NCBI GenBank assembly: GCA_016868455.1
Contig: VGGV01000006.1
Location: 62,001 to 126,000, forward strand
Length of the DNA: 64,000 nucleotides
Direction: 5' to 3'
Origin: Bacteroidota bacterium
GTDB lineage: Bacteria > Bacteroidota > Bacteroidia > Chitinophagales > Chitinophagaceae
The translations under genes were made by a program, and so were the position numbers. Below the pieces are notes generated by a model. It saw only the letters and a program-made list of their open reading frames with translations, was not told the origin of the DNA and did not search any database. Below, in pieces: positions 4,246-36,022 of this stretch. Each line of letters begins with the position of its first letter. The first letter of the stretch is position 1.

Positions 4246-5502
4246 ATGCCGTATTTATTTACTTCAGAATCTGTAAGTGAAGGACACCCGGATAAAGTGG
4301 CTGACCAGATTTCTGATGCCCTTATTGATAATTTTCTGGCCTTTGATCCGCAATCAAAAGTAGCCTGCGAAACATTGGTAACTACAGGGCAGGTGGTACT
4401 GGCGGGGGAAGTAAAATCGCAGGCTTATCTCGATGTACAGGAGATTGCCCGTAGTGTTATCAGAAGAATCGGATATACCAGGAGTGAATATATGTTTGAA
4501 GCCAGCAGTTGCGGTGTGCTTTCCGCTATTCATGAGCAATCAGCCGACATCAACCAGGGTGTTGACAAAAAGAAAAAAGAAGAGCAGGGCGCCGGCGACC
4601 AGGGTATGATGTTTGGCTATGCCACCAACGAAACAGAGCATTATATGCCTCTGGCTTTGGACCTGGCACATAACCTGCTGATTGAGCTGGCTGCGATACG
4701 CAGGGAAAGGAACTCTAAAATGCCTTACCTGCGTCCGGATGCCAAAAGCCAGGTAACATTGGAGTATAATGATAAGAACAAACCGGTGAGAATAGTGGCA
4801 ATAGTTATCTCCACACAACATGATGATTTTGATTCTGAAACTAAAATGCTGGCCAAGATCAAGAGTGATGTGATCAACATCCTTATTCCGAGAGTGAAGA
4901 ACAAGTACAGGAAGTACGCAAAACTTTTCAATACTGATATTAAGTATTATGTGAACCCCACCGGTAAGTTTGTGATTGGCGGCCCGCATGGTGATACCGG
5001 GTTAACCGGAAGAAAGATCATTGTTGACACATATGGAGGCAAAGGTGCCCATGGCGGAGGTGCATTCAGCGGAAAAGATCCTTCCAAAGTTGACCGTTCA
5101 GCCGCTTATGCCACAAGACATATTGCCAAGAATATGGTAGCAGCCGGTTTGTGTGATGAAGTGCTGGTGCAGGTTTCTTATGCAATCGGTGTGGCACAGC
5201 CCACCAGCATAAACCTTAATACCTATGGTACTGCTAAAGTGAATATGACTGACGGGCAGATCGCCAAAATTGTGCAGGGCTTGTTTGATATGCGTCCTTA
5301 TTTTATTGAGCAAAGACTGAAACTGCGCAATCCGATCTACAGCGAAACAGCAGCGTATGGTCATATGGGACGAAATCCGCAAATAGTAGATAAGACATTT
5401 GTTTCGCCGGATGGTAAAGTGGTAAAGAAAAAAGTGGAACTGTTTACCTGGGAAAAACTGGATTATGTGGAGAAGGTGAAAAAAGCTTTTAAGCTTAAAT
5501 AA
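4246..5502 (+). CDS. metK: S-adenosylmethionine synthase
   Basis: 418 aa; [45 protein letters not shown]. Confidence 0.97.
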
Positions 5503-5510
5503 ACAAGTAA

Positions 5511-5534
5511 CCCTCTCCGCCGAGAGGGTTTTTT
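5511..5534 (+). terminator. Rho-independent terminator after metK
   Basis: CCCTCTC-cgcc-GAGAGGG followed by TTTTTT. Confidence 0.8.
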
Positions 5535-6318
5535 GTTTGCCTACATTTGTATTGTGAAAAATTTCAGACAACAGCAAAGGCCGAAGAAGAGTTCATTGGT
5601 TATTGGCCGGCAGGCCGTGATGGAAGCATTGCAGACGGGCAGGCAGCTTGACAGGATATTTGTTACAAAAGATGTAAGGGGAATGATGGCCGAAGAGATA
5701 TTTTCTCTTGCAAAGCAATACAACGTTCCCGTCAACAAAGTGCCGGTGGAGAAACTGAATGGTTTTAATGTAAGTAATCATGAAGGCTGTGTGGCTGTTA
5801 TTGCAAAGATTCAGTATCAAAACCTGCAGGATATTATCTCACATGTGGTGGAGAAAGGGAAAGCCCTGCTGGTGCTTATTCTTGATGGTATAACTGATAT
5901 ACGAAATATTGGTGGTATTGCCCGTACGGCTTACTGTACCGGAGTGGATGCCATCATCATTCCTGATAAAGGTGTGGGGGCTTTAAACGAAGATGCCATA
6001 CTGACTTCTGCCGGGGCATTGGAGAAAATAGCTGTTTGCCGTGTTAACAGCTTAATGAAAGCGGTTGATGAACTGCATCTGAACGGTATAAAAGTATTTG
6101 CCAGCGAAACGACAGCAGCAAAGAGCATTTCCGAAGTTGATTTTACCGGGCCCTGTGCCATTGTAATGGGCAGTGAGGAAAAAGGAATTTACCCGGCATT
6201 ATTGAAGATATGTGATGAAAAAATAAAAATCCCGATGGCGGGTGATTTTGAATCACTCAATGTTTCGGTTGCCACCGGGATCATTTTATATGAAGCCATG
6301 AAGCAGAGAACGAAATGA
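5533..6318 (+). CDS. rlmB: SpoU/TrmH-family 23S rRNA (guanosine-2'-O-)-methyltransferase
   Basis: 261 aa; LVIGRQAVMEALQTG, LDGITDIRNIGGIARTAYCTGVDAIIIP, VMGSEEKGIYP; true start may be slightly internal. Confidence 0.85.
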   Translation: MFAYICIVKNFRQQQRPKKSSLVIGRQAVMEALQTGRQLDRIFVTKDVRGMMAEEIFSLAKQYNVPVNKVPVEKLNGFNVSNHEGCVAVIAKIQYQNLQDIISHVVEKGKALLVLILDGITDIRNIGGIARTAYCTGVDAIIIPDKGVGALNEDAILTSAGALEKIAVCRVNSLMKAVDELHLNGIKVFASETTAAKSISEVDFTGPCAIVMGSEEKGIYPALLKICDEKIKIPMAGDFESLNVSVATGIILYEAMKQRTK

Positions 6319-6452
6319 CTGATGAAAAAAAAATAAAACTGATCGAATGCCCCCGTGATGCCATGCAGGAGCCTCCCCAAACCCTGCCTGTCCGGCAGGC
6401 AGGCCCTCCGAAGGAGGGGCTTAAGTATCTCAAAGTAAGTAATATGACCTAA
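6315..6452 (+). pseudogene. Relic duplicate of the HMG-CoA lyase N-terminus (MTDEKKIKLIECPRDAMQ) running into a palindromic repeat
   Basis: Hand translation; IKLIECPRDAMQ matches the N-terminus of the downstream gene; ATGA overlap with the upstream methyltransferase stop. Confidence 0.7.
6371..6419. repeat. Composite palindromic repeat: outer GCCTCCCC/GGAGGGGC and CCCTCCGAAGGAGGG with inner family A CCTGCCTGTCCGGCAGGCAGG (6383-6403)
   Basis: Inverted repeats read directly from sequence. Confidence 0.75.
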
Positions 6453-6455
6453 ACA

Positions 6456-7358
6456 ATGGAAGCAATAAAATTAATAGAGTGCCCGAGAGATGCCATGCAA
6501 GGATGGAAGGTTTTTATTCCAACGGATAAAAAAATTGAATACATTAACTCTTTGCTGAAAGTGGGTTTTGATACCATTGATTTTGGCAGTTTTGTTTCGC
6601 CGAAGGCTATTCCGCAGATGGCGGATACGGGTGAAGTAGTTCGGGGTTTGAAGTTGGGAGTTAGCAGTTCTAAGTTGCTGGCCATAATTGCAAATTACCG
6701 GGGGGCAGAAGCAGCCTGCGGCTTTGACAAAATAACTTACCTGGGGTTCCCCTTTTCTGTTTCGGAAACTTTTCAGCAGCGCAATACCAATTCATCAATA
6801 GGAGAGTCACTCGGTAGGGTTGAAGCAATACAAAACCTCTGTATAAAAACCGGAAAACAGCTGGTTGTTTATATCTCCATGGGATTTGGAAATCCTTATG
6901 GTGACGCCTATGATGAAGAGATAGTTTTTGAATGGGTGAACAGATTAGTTGCAATGGATATTGGTATAATTTCTTTAGCCGATACGGTGGGTGTGGCTTC
7001 TCCTCAGCAGGTCTATGATATAACCAGCTACCTTGTTGAGTCGTTACCCGGAACAGAAATAGGGGTGCACCTTCACTCCACACCTGAAAACCGGAAAGAT
7101 AAACTGGAAGCGGCGGTAAAAGCCGGTTGCAAGCGGTTTGACGGTGCGCTGAGAGGAATCGGCGGCTGCCCCATGGCCGATGATGAACTGGTGGGGAATA
7201 TGAATACCGAAAGAATGATTGATTACTTTGAGGAGCGTGAAATGCTTTCCGGACTGGATAAAGAAGCGCTGGCCGAAAGCTTGCGGATTGCGGGAGAGAT
7301 ATTTAGCCTCACCCCCAACCCCTCTCTGCCCCGCGGAGAGGGGAGTAATTCCCGATAA
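6456..7358 (+). CDS. Hydroxymethylglutaryl-CoA lyase
   Basis: 300 aa; IECPRDAMQGWKVFIPTDKKIEYINSLLKVGFDTIDFGSFVSPKAIPQM; GVHLHSTPENRKDKLEAAVKAGCKRFDGALRGIGGCPMA. Confidence 0.9.
   Translation: MEAIKLIECPRDAMQGWKVFIPTDKKIEYINSLLKVGFDTIDFGSFVSPKAIPQMADTGEVVRGLKLGVSSSKLLAIIANYRGAEAACGFDKITYLGFPFSVSETFQQRNTNSSIGESLGRVEAIQNLCIKTGKQLVVYISMGFGNPYGDAYDEEIVFEWVNRLVAMDIGIISLADTVGVASPQQVYDITSYLVESLPGTEIGVHLHSTPENRKDKLEAAVKAGCKRFDGALRGIGGCPMADDELVGNMNTERMIDYFEEREMLSGLDKEALAESLRIAGEIFSLTPNPSLPRGEGSNSR
7308..7345. repeat. Family B palindromic repeat forming the C-terminal end of the HMG-CoA lyase ORF
   Basis: CTCACCCCCAACCCCTCTCTGCCCCGCGGAGAGGGGAG; arms CCCCTCTC/GAGAGGGG; encodes LTPNPSLPRGEG. Confidence 0.75.
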
Positions 7359-7368
7359 AATAACCTGA

Positions 7369-8370
7369 ATGGATTTATTACTGAATATTGAACTGAATAA
7401 ACTACCAGAATCTATTACTTACCGTGACAAAAGCATGCTCGTGGGTTCCTGTTTTACCGAGCACATAGGTAATACACTGGGCGAACTGAAATTTCAAACG
7501 CTTCAAAATCCTAACGGGATACTCTTTGGCCCAGATGCTGTTTGCAAGAGCCTGCTTTCACATGTTCAAAACAAACAGTACGCAGAACAGGATTTGTTTT
7601 ACCTGAACGAAGTCTGGAACAGTTGGGACCATCATTCACGGTTTTCTCATATTCATAAAGATGAATGCCTGAAGGGAATTAATCAATCACAACAAAAAGC
7701 CCATGATTTTCTTTATGTGGCGGATTGGTTAATAATAACGCTTGGTTCTTCATTTAGTTATTTCCTCACCCCCCAACCCCCTCTCCACTTGTGGAGAGGG
7801 GGGGAGGCTGTGGCCAATTGCCACCGGGCGCCGGCCAATTGGTTTGAGAAAAAAATGCTGGAGGTTGATGAGATAAAAGAAATGCTGGAAAGCTGCCTGA
7901 AACAATTAAAACAATTCAATCCCGGTCTGAAGTTCATATTTACTGTGAGTCCTGTACGCCACATCAGAGATGGAGTGGTGGAGAACAACCGAAGCAAGGC
8001 AAGGCTGATTGAAGCCGTACATTTCATCTGCTCTAAATTTGAATCAGCCCATTATTTCCCGGCCTATGAACTGGTGATTGATGTGCTGCGGGATTACCGG
8101 TTTTATGATATTGACCTGGTGCACCCCAATTATCCTGCTACTGAATTTGTACTTGAAAAGTTTATTGAAACCTGTATTGCTGAAGAAACGCAACAACTGA
8201 TGAAGGAAATAAAGCAGATTGTGATTGCAAGAAAGCACCGCCCTTTTCAGCCGGATACCAATGCCCACCGGCAGTTTTTGAAATCCTATCTTGAAAAGGT
8301 GAAAGATTTACAGCAAAAACACAATTTTCTTGACTTGAAAGAAGAACTGAATTACTTTTCACAGGCATAG
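7369..8370 (+). CDS. GSCFA domain-containing protein
   Basis: 333 aa; MLVGSCFTEHIGNTLGELKF, NPNGILFGP, TVSPVRHIRDGVVENNRSKA. Confidence 0.85.
   Translation: MDLLLNIELNKLPESITYRDKSMLVGSCFTEHIGNTLGELKFQTLQNPNGILFGPDAVCKSLLSHVQNKQYAEQDLFYLNEVWNSWDHHSRFSHIHKDECLKGINQSQQKAHDFLYVADWLIITLGSSFSYFLTPQPPLHLWRGGEAVANCHRAPANWFEKKMLEVDEIKEMLESCLKQLKQFNPGLKFIFTVSPVRHIRDGVVENNRSKARLIEAVHFICSKFESAHYFPAYELVIDVLRDYRFYDIDLVHPNYPATEFVLEKFIETCIAEETQQLMKEIKQIVIARKHRPFQPDTNAHRQFLKSYLEKVKDLQQKHNFLDLKEELNYFSQA
7765..7806. repeat. Family B palindromic repeat in frame inside the GSCFA gene
   Basis: CCCCCTCTCCAC-TT-GTGGAGAGGGGG perfect 12-bp arms; encodes LTPQPPLHLWRGGE. Confidence 0.85.
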
Positions 8371-35096: not shown

Positions 35097-36022
35097 ATGA
35101 AAGCGAGAATGCTGATGCAAACAGCAGCTTTTTGCTGCGCCGCACTGTTTTTTACTTCCTGTCAAAAAAATGCCGGCGCACCCGATTACCGTTCTGAATC
35201 CACAGTTCATGCAGATGATCAGAACCGGTTTTCCGGCGAAGCCGATGCTGTGGCCAATGAAGCCAACCTGTTGCTGGAAGCAACAGCGGGGTTTGCGAGG
35301 AAAACGGACAACCTGCAATCACTGATATGTGATGCAACTGTGGCAGTGGATACCGCCAGTAATCCCAGAACAATTACCATTACTTAGAACGGAACAAATT
35401 GCCTGGGTAACCGCACCCGTACCGGAGTGATTGTACTTTCCATGGCACAGGGCGTAAGGTGGAGGGATGCCGGGGCGCAGTTAAACATCAGTTTTCAGAA
35501 TTTTAAAATAACCCGCCTGAGTGATAACAAGAGTATTACCATCAATGGCACGTAACGCATACCAATGTAAGCGGCGGATTGCTCATCAACCTGCCGGTAC
35601 TGGGCACTATAACCCATACTATTACGAGCGGTAATATGTCTGTTACATTTGACAATAATACACAACGCACCTGGCAGGTGGCCCGCCAGCGGGTGTTTAC
35701 CTATAATAACGGGATTGTTATCACAATTACCGGGCTGCATTCGCAAAACGGAATTAGTGGGATTGCTGAATGGGGTACAAACCGCTTTGGCAATGCGTTT
35801 ACCACAGCTATTACCCAGCCCCTTGTGCTGAAGCAAGATTGCAGTTTCAGGCCCGGCAGCGGCAAAGCAGAACATAACACTTCATTTTTTACCGCCACTG
35901 TTACATTGGGGCTGGATGCCAATGGCAACCCCACGGGGTGTTCGGGAACAGACCCTTACTATATGAAGGTAGTGTGGACAGGGCCTGCAGGCAATACCCG
36001 TTCGGTTTTGTTACCTTATTGA
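35097..36022 (+). pseudogene. Hypothetical lipoprotein-like protein, broken by an amber codon and a frameshift
   Basis: MKARMLMQTAAFCCAALFFTSCQKN...NPRTITIT*NGTNCLGNRTRTGVIVLSMAQGVRWRDAGAQLNISFQNFKITRLSDNKSITING, then frame change into HVTHTNVSGGLLINLPVLGTITHTITSGNMSVTF...RSVLLPY*. Confidence 0.8.

Follow-up and report, generated by a model that had tools for sequence, protein, structure and literature searches.

In xenologous gene displacement in situ, reportedly described by Omelchenko and colleagues in 2003, genes are displaced in place within conserved operons. In natural transformation, homology-facilitated illegitimate recombination combines homologous pairing on one side with a non-homologous joint on the other. 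Rickettsia palindromic elements (RPEs) are palindromes that are read in frame inside ORFs, and Allomyces-type mitochondrial insertions, which carry an endonuclease ORF, introduce a foreign end of atp6 while the old one stays behind downstream. The REP sequences of TnpA-REP (RAYT) systems are short multi-copy palindromes (PMC3733652, PMC8266576) and are defined by a tetranucleotide tag, GTAG or CGTC, at the end of the palindrome (PMC3733652).

Here we describe an HMG-CoA-lyase-like gene that is preceded by a second copy of its own start and by a palindromic element. It lies in a window of 64,000 nucleotides, the whole stretch of DNA analysed, from contig 6 of a genome (G000) of 2.64 Mb. Its nearest named records belong for the most part to Chitinophagaceae and Ferruginibacter.

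Two starts of one lyase gene

The window carries the gene order metK (4246-5502), rlmB (5554-6318), lyase (6456-7358) and a GSCFA-like gene (7369-8370), which is common to the relatives and conserved on both sides of the lyase. The features of the locus are as follows.

5554-6318, + strand: rlmB-like SpoU rRNA methyltransferase, the native upstream neighbour (Pfam SpoU_methylase, E 7e-42); its stop overlaps the ATG of the stub
6315-6368, + strand: native lyase start kept as a relic, MTDEKKIKLIECPRDAMQ, 18 codons; relatives begin their lyase at this same ATGA fusion, and the codons are relative-like
6315-6452, + strand: stub ORF of 45 aa, a possible coupled leader; it stays open across the element, with its stop 3 nt short of the lyase ATG
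6370-6422, + strand: palindromic element; its GCCTC end abuts the relic and its hairpin end faces the functional gene
6383-6403, + strand: second palindrome, CCTGCCTGTCCGGCAGGCAGG, of a multi-copy family, nested in the GCCTC element
6423-6455, + strand: spacer, presumed 5' flank of the imported start; absent from the junctions of relatives
6456-6500, + strand: diverged, putatively imported start now used by the functional lyase, MEAIKLIECPRDAMQ; low codon agreement with relatives
6456-7358, + strand: functional HMG-CoA-lyase-like gene (Pfam HMGL-like, E 1e-24), the sole lyase match in the genome
7306-7345, + strand: another palindromic element, joined in frame to the 3' end of the lyase and adding the tail SLTPNPSLPRGEGSNSR

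As an initial annotation had read from the letters, the stub ORF opens at an ATGA overlapping the rlmB stop and then runs into a palindrome, and the functional lyase begins again downstream. The stub encodes MTDEKKIKLIECPRDAMQ, the element has the ends GCCTC...GGAGGGGCTT, and the lyase begins with MEAIKLIECPRDAMQGW. A repeat finder independently paired 6332-6367 with 6464-6499 (81% identical, spacing 132). The two starts, 132 nt apart, are identical at 12 of 12 residues across IKLIECPRDAMQ, and a recount over these 12 codons returned the eight nucleotide differences that had been reported, which fall in six codons and are all synonymous. Chance, the other explanation that had been considered for the codon similarity, is answered by shuffling: the flanks of the element score 64 as a pair, against at most 40 for shuffled pairings of such elements, and when 1,852 gene ends were tested, the lyase start scored 63, with shuffled maxima of 41 for 5' ends and 44 for 3' ends. 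The duplicated lyase start is not a product of chance.

Both palindrome families, the GCCTC element and the nested CCTGCCTGTCCGGCAGGCAGG, are multi-copy in the genome. A family pattern close to CCTGCCTGTCCGGCAGGCAGG and one base shorter has 36 forward and 34 reverse matches, with 0 in the control, and compound copies of the lyase-stub element (89% identical) lie at hisS and at C4:20302. As RNA, the element at 6370-6422 folds with -28 kcal/mol (z -1.5) and that at 7306-7345 forms a hairpin of -21.5 kcal/mol (z -4.0); an Rfam scan of 5000-7700 returned no structured RNA match. The tail SLTPNPSLPRGEGSNSR added by the latter element is missing from 18 of the 18 relatives compared. Seven-base tandem repeats (CTTGTAC..., GGGACAA...) also occur at L238:16625 and L303:3019, where they seem to be non-coding.

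In G029, G027, G005, G018 and other relatives there is a single lyase, and its start lies precisely at the ATGA that overlaps rlmB. The codons of the stub are closer than those of the functional start to 18 of 19 relatives; mean synonymous-codon agreement is 0.65 at the stub, falls to 0.34 at the functional start and is 0.45 across the lyase body. The stub is therefore the native lyase start, and the start in use is a diverged one, which we read as an import. An order-wide search yielded no closer donor for the lyase, the best relatives across genus and order being 86% identical; the lack of a donor for the start weighs against an import.

The same layout at other gene ends

About 2.29 Mb of the genome was taken in stretches and searched for peptides that are repeated within 260 nt and not in one ORF. 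At least seven gene ends, the lyase and six others, share the layout of functional end, spacer, palindrome and native relic. Two of these scars are at 5' ends (lyase, hisS) and five at 3' ends (dnaK, semialdehyde dehydrogenase, hutU, an MBL-fold gene and a gene at L215). The orientation is the same in these seven cases: the element abuts the relic with its CCTC-type end and turns its hairpin end towards the functional gene. The names hisS, dnaK, dehydrogenase, hutU and MBL are what we take these genes to be from their sequences, lyase and rlmB being the only Pfam-based names.

hisS start, L236 reverse strand 1902-2110 (C7, near 77970-78035): 20 of 21 residues identical, 8 synonymous codon changes
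dnaK end, VTDVPYEEVK-stop, L196:13788-13904 (C1:73788-73904): 11 of 11 residues, 8 codons synonymously different
Semialdehyde dehydrogenase end, WNPEAGVNWMS-stop: 12 of 12 residues, 9 synonymous changes
MBL-fold hydrolase end: 9 of 10 residues
Gene end at L215: 10 of 10 residues, 2 synonymous changes, the least diverged pair
hutU end: relic beyond the element, frameshifted

Across six pooled end pairs, 36 codon changes are synonymous and 2 are nonsynonymous. Under unconstrained drift about 29 nonsynonymous changes would be expected (minimum 21 in 5,000 trials), indicating that both copies were functional until recently. The earlier view that the lyase copies are old and diverged under selection on the protein, rather than arising by recent copying, is thereby strengthened.

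Among 22 elements of the strict GCCTC pattern, five are flanked by matching peptides, with scores of 52-82 against a maximum of 40 in 62 shuffled pairings; the remaining 17 have no relic. In the gene-end test, the top-scoring relics were hutU (110), hisS (104), dehydrogenase (73), lyase (63), MBL (58) and dnaK (57), all six with an intervening hairpin, and the other high hits that were examined look like adjacent or internal repeats. One gene end at L244:18095-18180 (C10) reads CSEGTKVWER-stop and is followed 16 nt on by a diverged relic, CSKGTKVWER, with no palindrome in between. This suggests that the palindromes favour the joint rather than being required for it.

At hisS, the relic MTKPTLPQETRDFGPEVVRKR, the element and the functional start follow in order, and the codons of relatives do not separate the two starts as to which is native. 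The relic ORFs at both 5' ends stay open through the element; that of the lyase ends 3 nt before the functional ATG, and that of hisS ends at -4 nt, its TGA overlapping the ATG. For the suggestion of a coupled leader ORF, the stop beside the functional ATG stands in its favour, but such a placement departs only weakly from chance (0.05 for lyase and 0.26 for hisS by shuffling). The native start likely still drives translation of the stub, and coupling of the stub to the lyase is plausible. For annotation, start-like stubs before genes and tails past stops may be scars of this kind, and not paralogues or leaders.

The hutU end is informative about the origin of the two copies. It is the relic beyond the element, LADGTDDAEERLKRVLRND..., that conforms to the genus pattern; the functional tail, VADGTEEAADRLSRVLKND..., deviates from it. 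Since many residues differ between the relic and its functional partner, and the relic is nearer the relatives, the partner is a diverged orthologue and not a recoded duplicate. Codon agreement with 12 relatives was 0.49 before the junction, 0.27 for the functional tail after it and 0.44 for the relic, which was scored in two pieces because it is frameshifted, as an abandoned piece would be; further along the tail there is no such advantage (functional 0.38, relic 0.24).

Three close sister species show hutU before and after insertion of the new end (L314 against L315 and L316). In G063 (L314), the gene has the ancestral end ...YEIAEETLQANDLDFKKRLK-stop. The bodies of the G060 and G059 genes align with it, mostly at 85-95%, up to the junction, after which G060 has a new tail, ELANETAKANNLNLADRLMK-stop, followed by CTT and the element CCCTCTCTGAAGGAGAGGGACGGGAGGGTGAGGCC; its old tail, AEETLQANDLDFKNRLK-stop, comes immediately behind the element. 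G059 has a new end and the element at the same point with the old end beyond. Little or no native sequence is missing at the insertion point relative to G063. The stop-CTT-element join also occurs in hutU of the genome under study, and G022 and G025 retain an old-type tail downstream of a different intervening sequence. Across the genus (L313-L324), hutU occurs in two forms, with or without about 38 residues at 163-201; a link between this body subtype and the tail type was considered and is broken by G025. An apparent hutU relic in G021 was discarded as a 100-N scaffold gap.

For the dehydrogenase, the relic and the element that follows it are contiguous with the 3' end of the gene in G022 (93% identical; 84% in G001), and both the downstream neighbour and the flanks are conserved. 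Given the contiguous match in G022 and the conserved neighbour, the relic is the native end of this gene. A dehydrogenase relic in G021, with a gap of about 102 nt, is probably an artefact and was discarded. In G022, metK (L174) is 74% identical to that of the window, against 83-93% for other relatives, making it a candidate displaced core gene. Collectively, the comparisons suggest that the scar reflects a recurrent mode of partial in-place gene replacement in this bacterium.

Proposed one-ended copying and alternative explanations

The account that we lean towards, with moderate confidence, is that the start of a diverged orthologous lyase was copied in from one end, up to the palindromic element, leaving the 18 native codons upstream as a relic. 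A broken or invading end within the native gene would pair with the foreign orthologue and be extended outward through the end and flank of that gene. Copying would stop at the distal (GCCTC) end of the palindromic element, and this end would be joined without homology to the other native end, so that the native terminal codons remain beyond the element. At the lyase, the joint with the native gene would lie immediately behind codon 18, with the functional gene beginning at the imported ATG. We infer the break, the copying, its stop at the palindrome, the end joining and the foreign donor from the junctions; one-ended copying would be the simplest process to yield 5' scars, 3' scars and the polarity alike. 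The scars suggest that replacement can begin where one side is homologous and end, with no homology needed, at a palindrome, that housekeeping genes are within its reach, and that a simple screen suffices to count it. It is unlikely that the GCCTC palindromes are themselves active agents of gene-end exchange in this genus, with dedicated machinery that recognises one end of the element, directs the copying of termini between species and acts in cassette-like fashion on core genes such as hisS and dnaK.

Either the start alone or the whole lyase may be foreign. G029 is nearest to the window at metK, rlmB and the GSCFA gene, with synonymous-codon identities of 0.62, 0.53 and 0.58, compared with 0.45 at the lyase (0.45 vs 0.58, p = 6e-4); G029 is not nearest everywhere, as it is not the closest relative at a gene neighbouring hisS. 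A DNA tree of the GSCFA gene joins the window and G029 (support 99/96), whereas the lyase tree does not. This apparent discordance with both neighbours suits whole-gene xenologous displacement in situ, in which a full foreign lyase would have taken the place of the native gene, sparing just the first 18 native codons. Also in its favour, the dehydrogenase of this genome shares 97% identity with its G022 counterpart, the other full-length matches reaching 84-91%. By contrast, AU tests did not reject a window+G029 clade for the lyase (p about 0.12), codon agreement of the lyase body is ordinary, and the G060 and G059 hutU genes show a new end only, on a vertical body. We regard whole-gene displacement as the less probable course at the lyase, to be given perhaps a minor share of the weight, and it may apply to the lyase and the dehydrogenase.

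One-ended copying must also be set against explanations in which no foreign orthologue is copied. A mobile palindromic element might have a recoded, alternative gene end as its cargo, insert cleanly into the matching gene in a homing-like manner and restore it. This would be indistinguishable from copying at the G060 and G059 hutU genes, where insertion is clean and at one point; the same stop-CTT-element join in this genome and the fixed polarity of the element fit it as well. Such a unit would nevertheless require a separate captured end for each gene; the element contains no ORF, most strict elements (17 of 22) have no relic and one relic (L244:18101-18180) has no element. We consider it improbable. 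Trimming of an old tandem paralogue or partial duplication, or a deletion between tandem paralogues as the initial annotation had proposed, agrees with the purely synonymous divergence of the lyase starts. It is at odds with what the junctions contain: comparison of the rlmB-lyase junction across the relatives examined, the check that had been suggested, revealed no tandem lyases, each having one lyase with the ATGA start; a search of this genome found one lyase; hisS, dnaK and hutU have the same pattern with an element each time; and the hutU relic resembles an orthologue and not a copy. Protein-level selection on old copies thus survives from that proposal, while a cut-down duplicate or tandem paralogues at the locus is very improbable. 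A joining of two strain alleles at a repeat during assembly deserves equally little credence. The genome is of metagenome style, many genomes of the genus are metagenome assemblies and the apparent G021 relic is such an artefact; however, the junctions in this genome contain no Ns, the joint between element and relic falls within a gene, where no sequence in common that could be mis-joined is visible, and the same type of scar is found in G022 (9 contigs), G060 (3 contigs) and G059. Target-site duplication upon insertion of the element, followed by drift, would place the element between two direct repeats, as observed. These repeats are 10 to about 50 codons long and differ by 2-11 nt per pair, being neither identical nor of fixed length, and the pooled excess of synonymous over nonsynonymous changes is far from the drift expectation. 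As a general explanation it is therefore extremely improbable; for the least diverged pair, at L215, with two differences, it is possible.

Comparison with known systems

REP sequences, RPEs and homing insertions each resemble parts of the scar, and the defining features tested in them were absent here. Like REP sequences, the elements are short multi-copy palindromes, some of them in coding regions, and the genome encodes Y1 transposases, but neither a GTAG nor a CGTC tag is present at the element ends (GCCTC...GGAGGGGCTT). We know of no REP feature that corresponds to gene-end relics. Two intact Y1 (HUH) transposase genes lie at C19:22422-22766 and 35510-35854, on the contig of the dehydrogenase scar. 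A RAYT/REP origin of the element, which calls for an associated Y1 transposase flanked by the same palindrome, was considered and set aside, as the one intact copy examined (Y1_Tnp at C19:22422) is flanked by the palindromes AACCCCGAAGGGGTT, which are unlike the GCCTC element. With RPEs, the locus shares an in-frame palindrome, in the stub ORF as well as in the lyase tail, although the sequence is different, and to our knowledge RPEs do not bring a second gene end. Palindromes of the CCTGCCTGNCGGCAGGCAGG type often seem to lie within reading frames in this genome (NLPAGQAG-like peptides, for example at L118, L119 and L120), in an RPE-like manner. Allomyces-type insertions come close in bringing a foreign gene end together with an element and leaving the native end as a relic; in the scar inserts, which consist of spacer and short palindrome alone, there is no endonuclease ORF. 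Native gene-end relics at palindromes were not described in the open-access papers searched.

Displacement in situ and one-sided illegitimate recombination are already known, and the scars share features with both. As in homology-facilitated illegitimate recombination, hutU of G060 and G059 compared with G063 has one homologous and one non-homologous junction, whereas here it is repeatedly the same palindrome end at which the non-homologous joint falls. As in displacement in situ, foreign orthologous sequence would have taken over within a conserved gene order; unlike it, the native end persists as a relic at a palindromic junction, and in hutU the end alone is replaced. Orthologue replacement inside operons is usually inferred from trees once its traces have been lost, whereas here the junctions themselves, consisting of relic, element and putatively imported end, are preserved.
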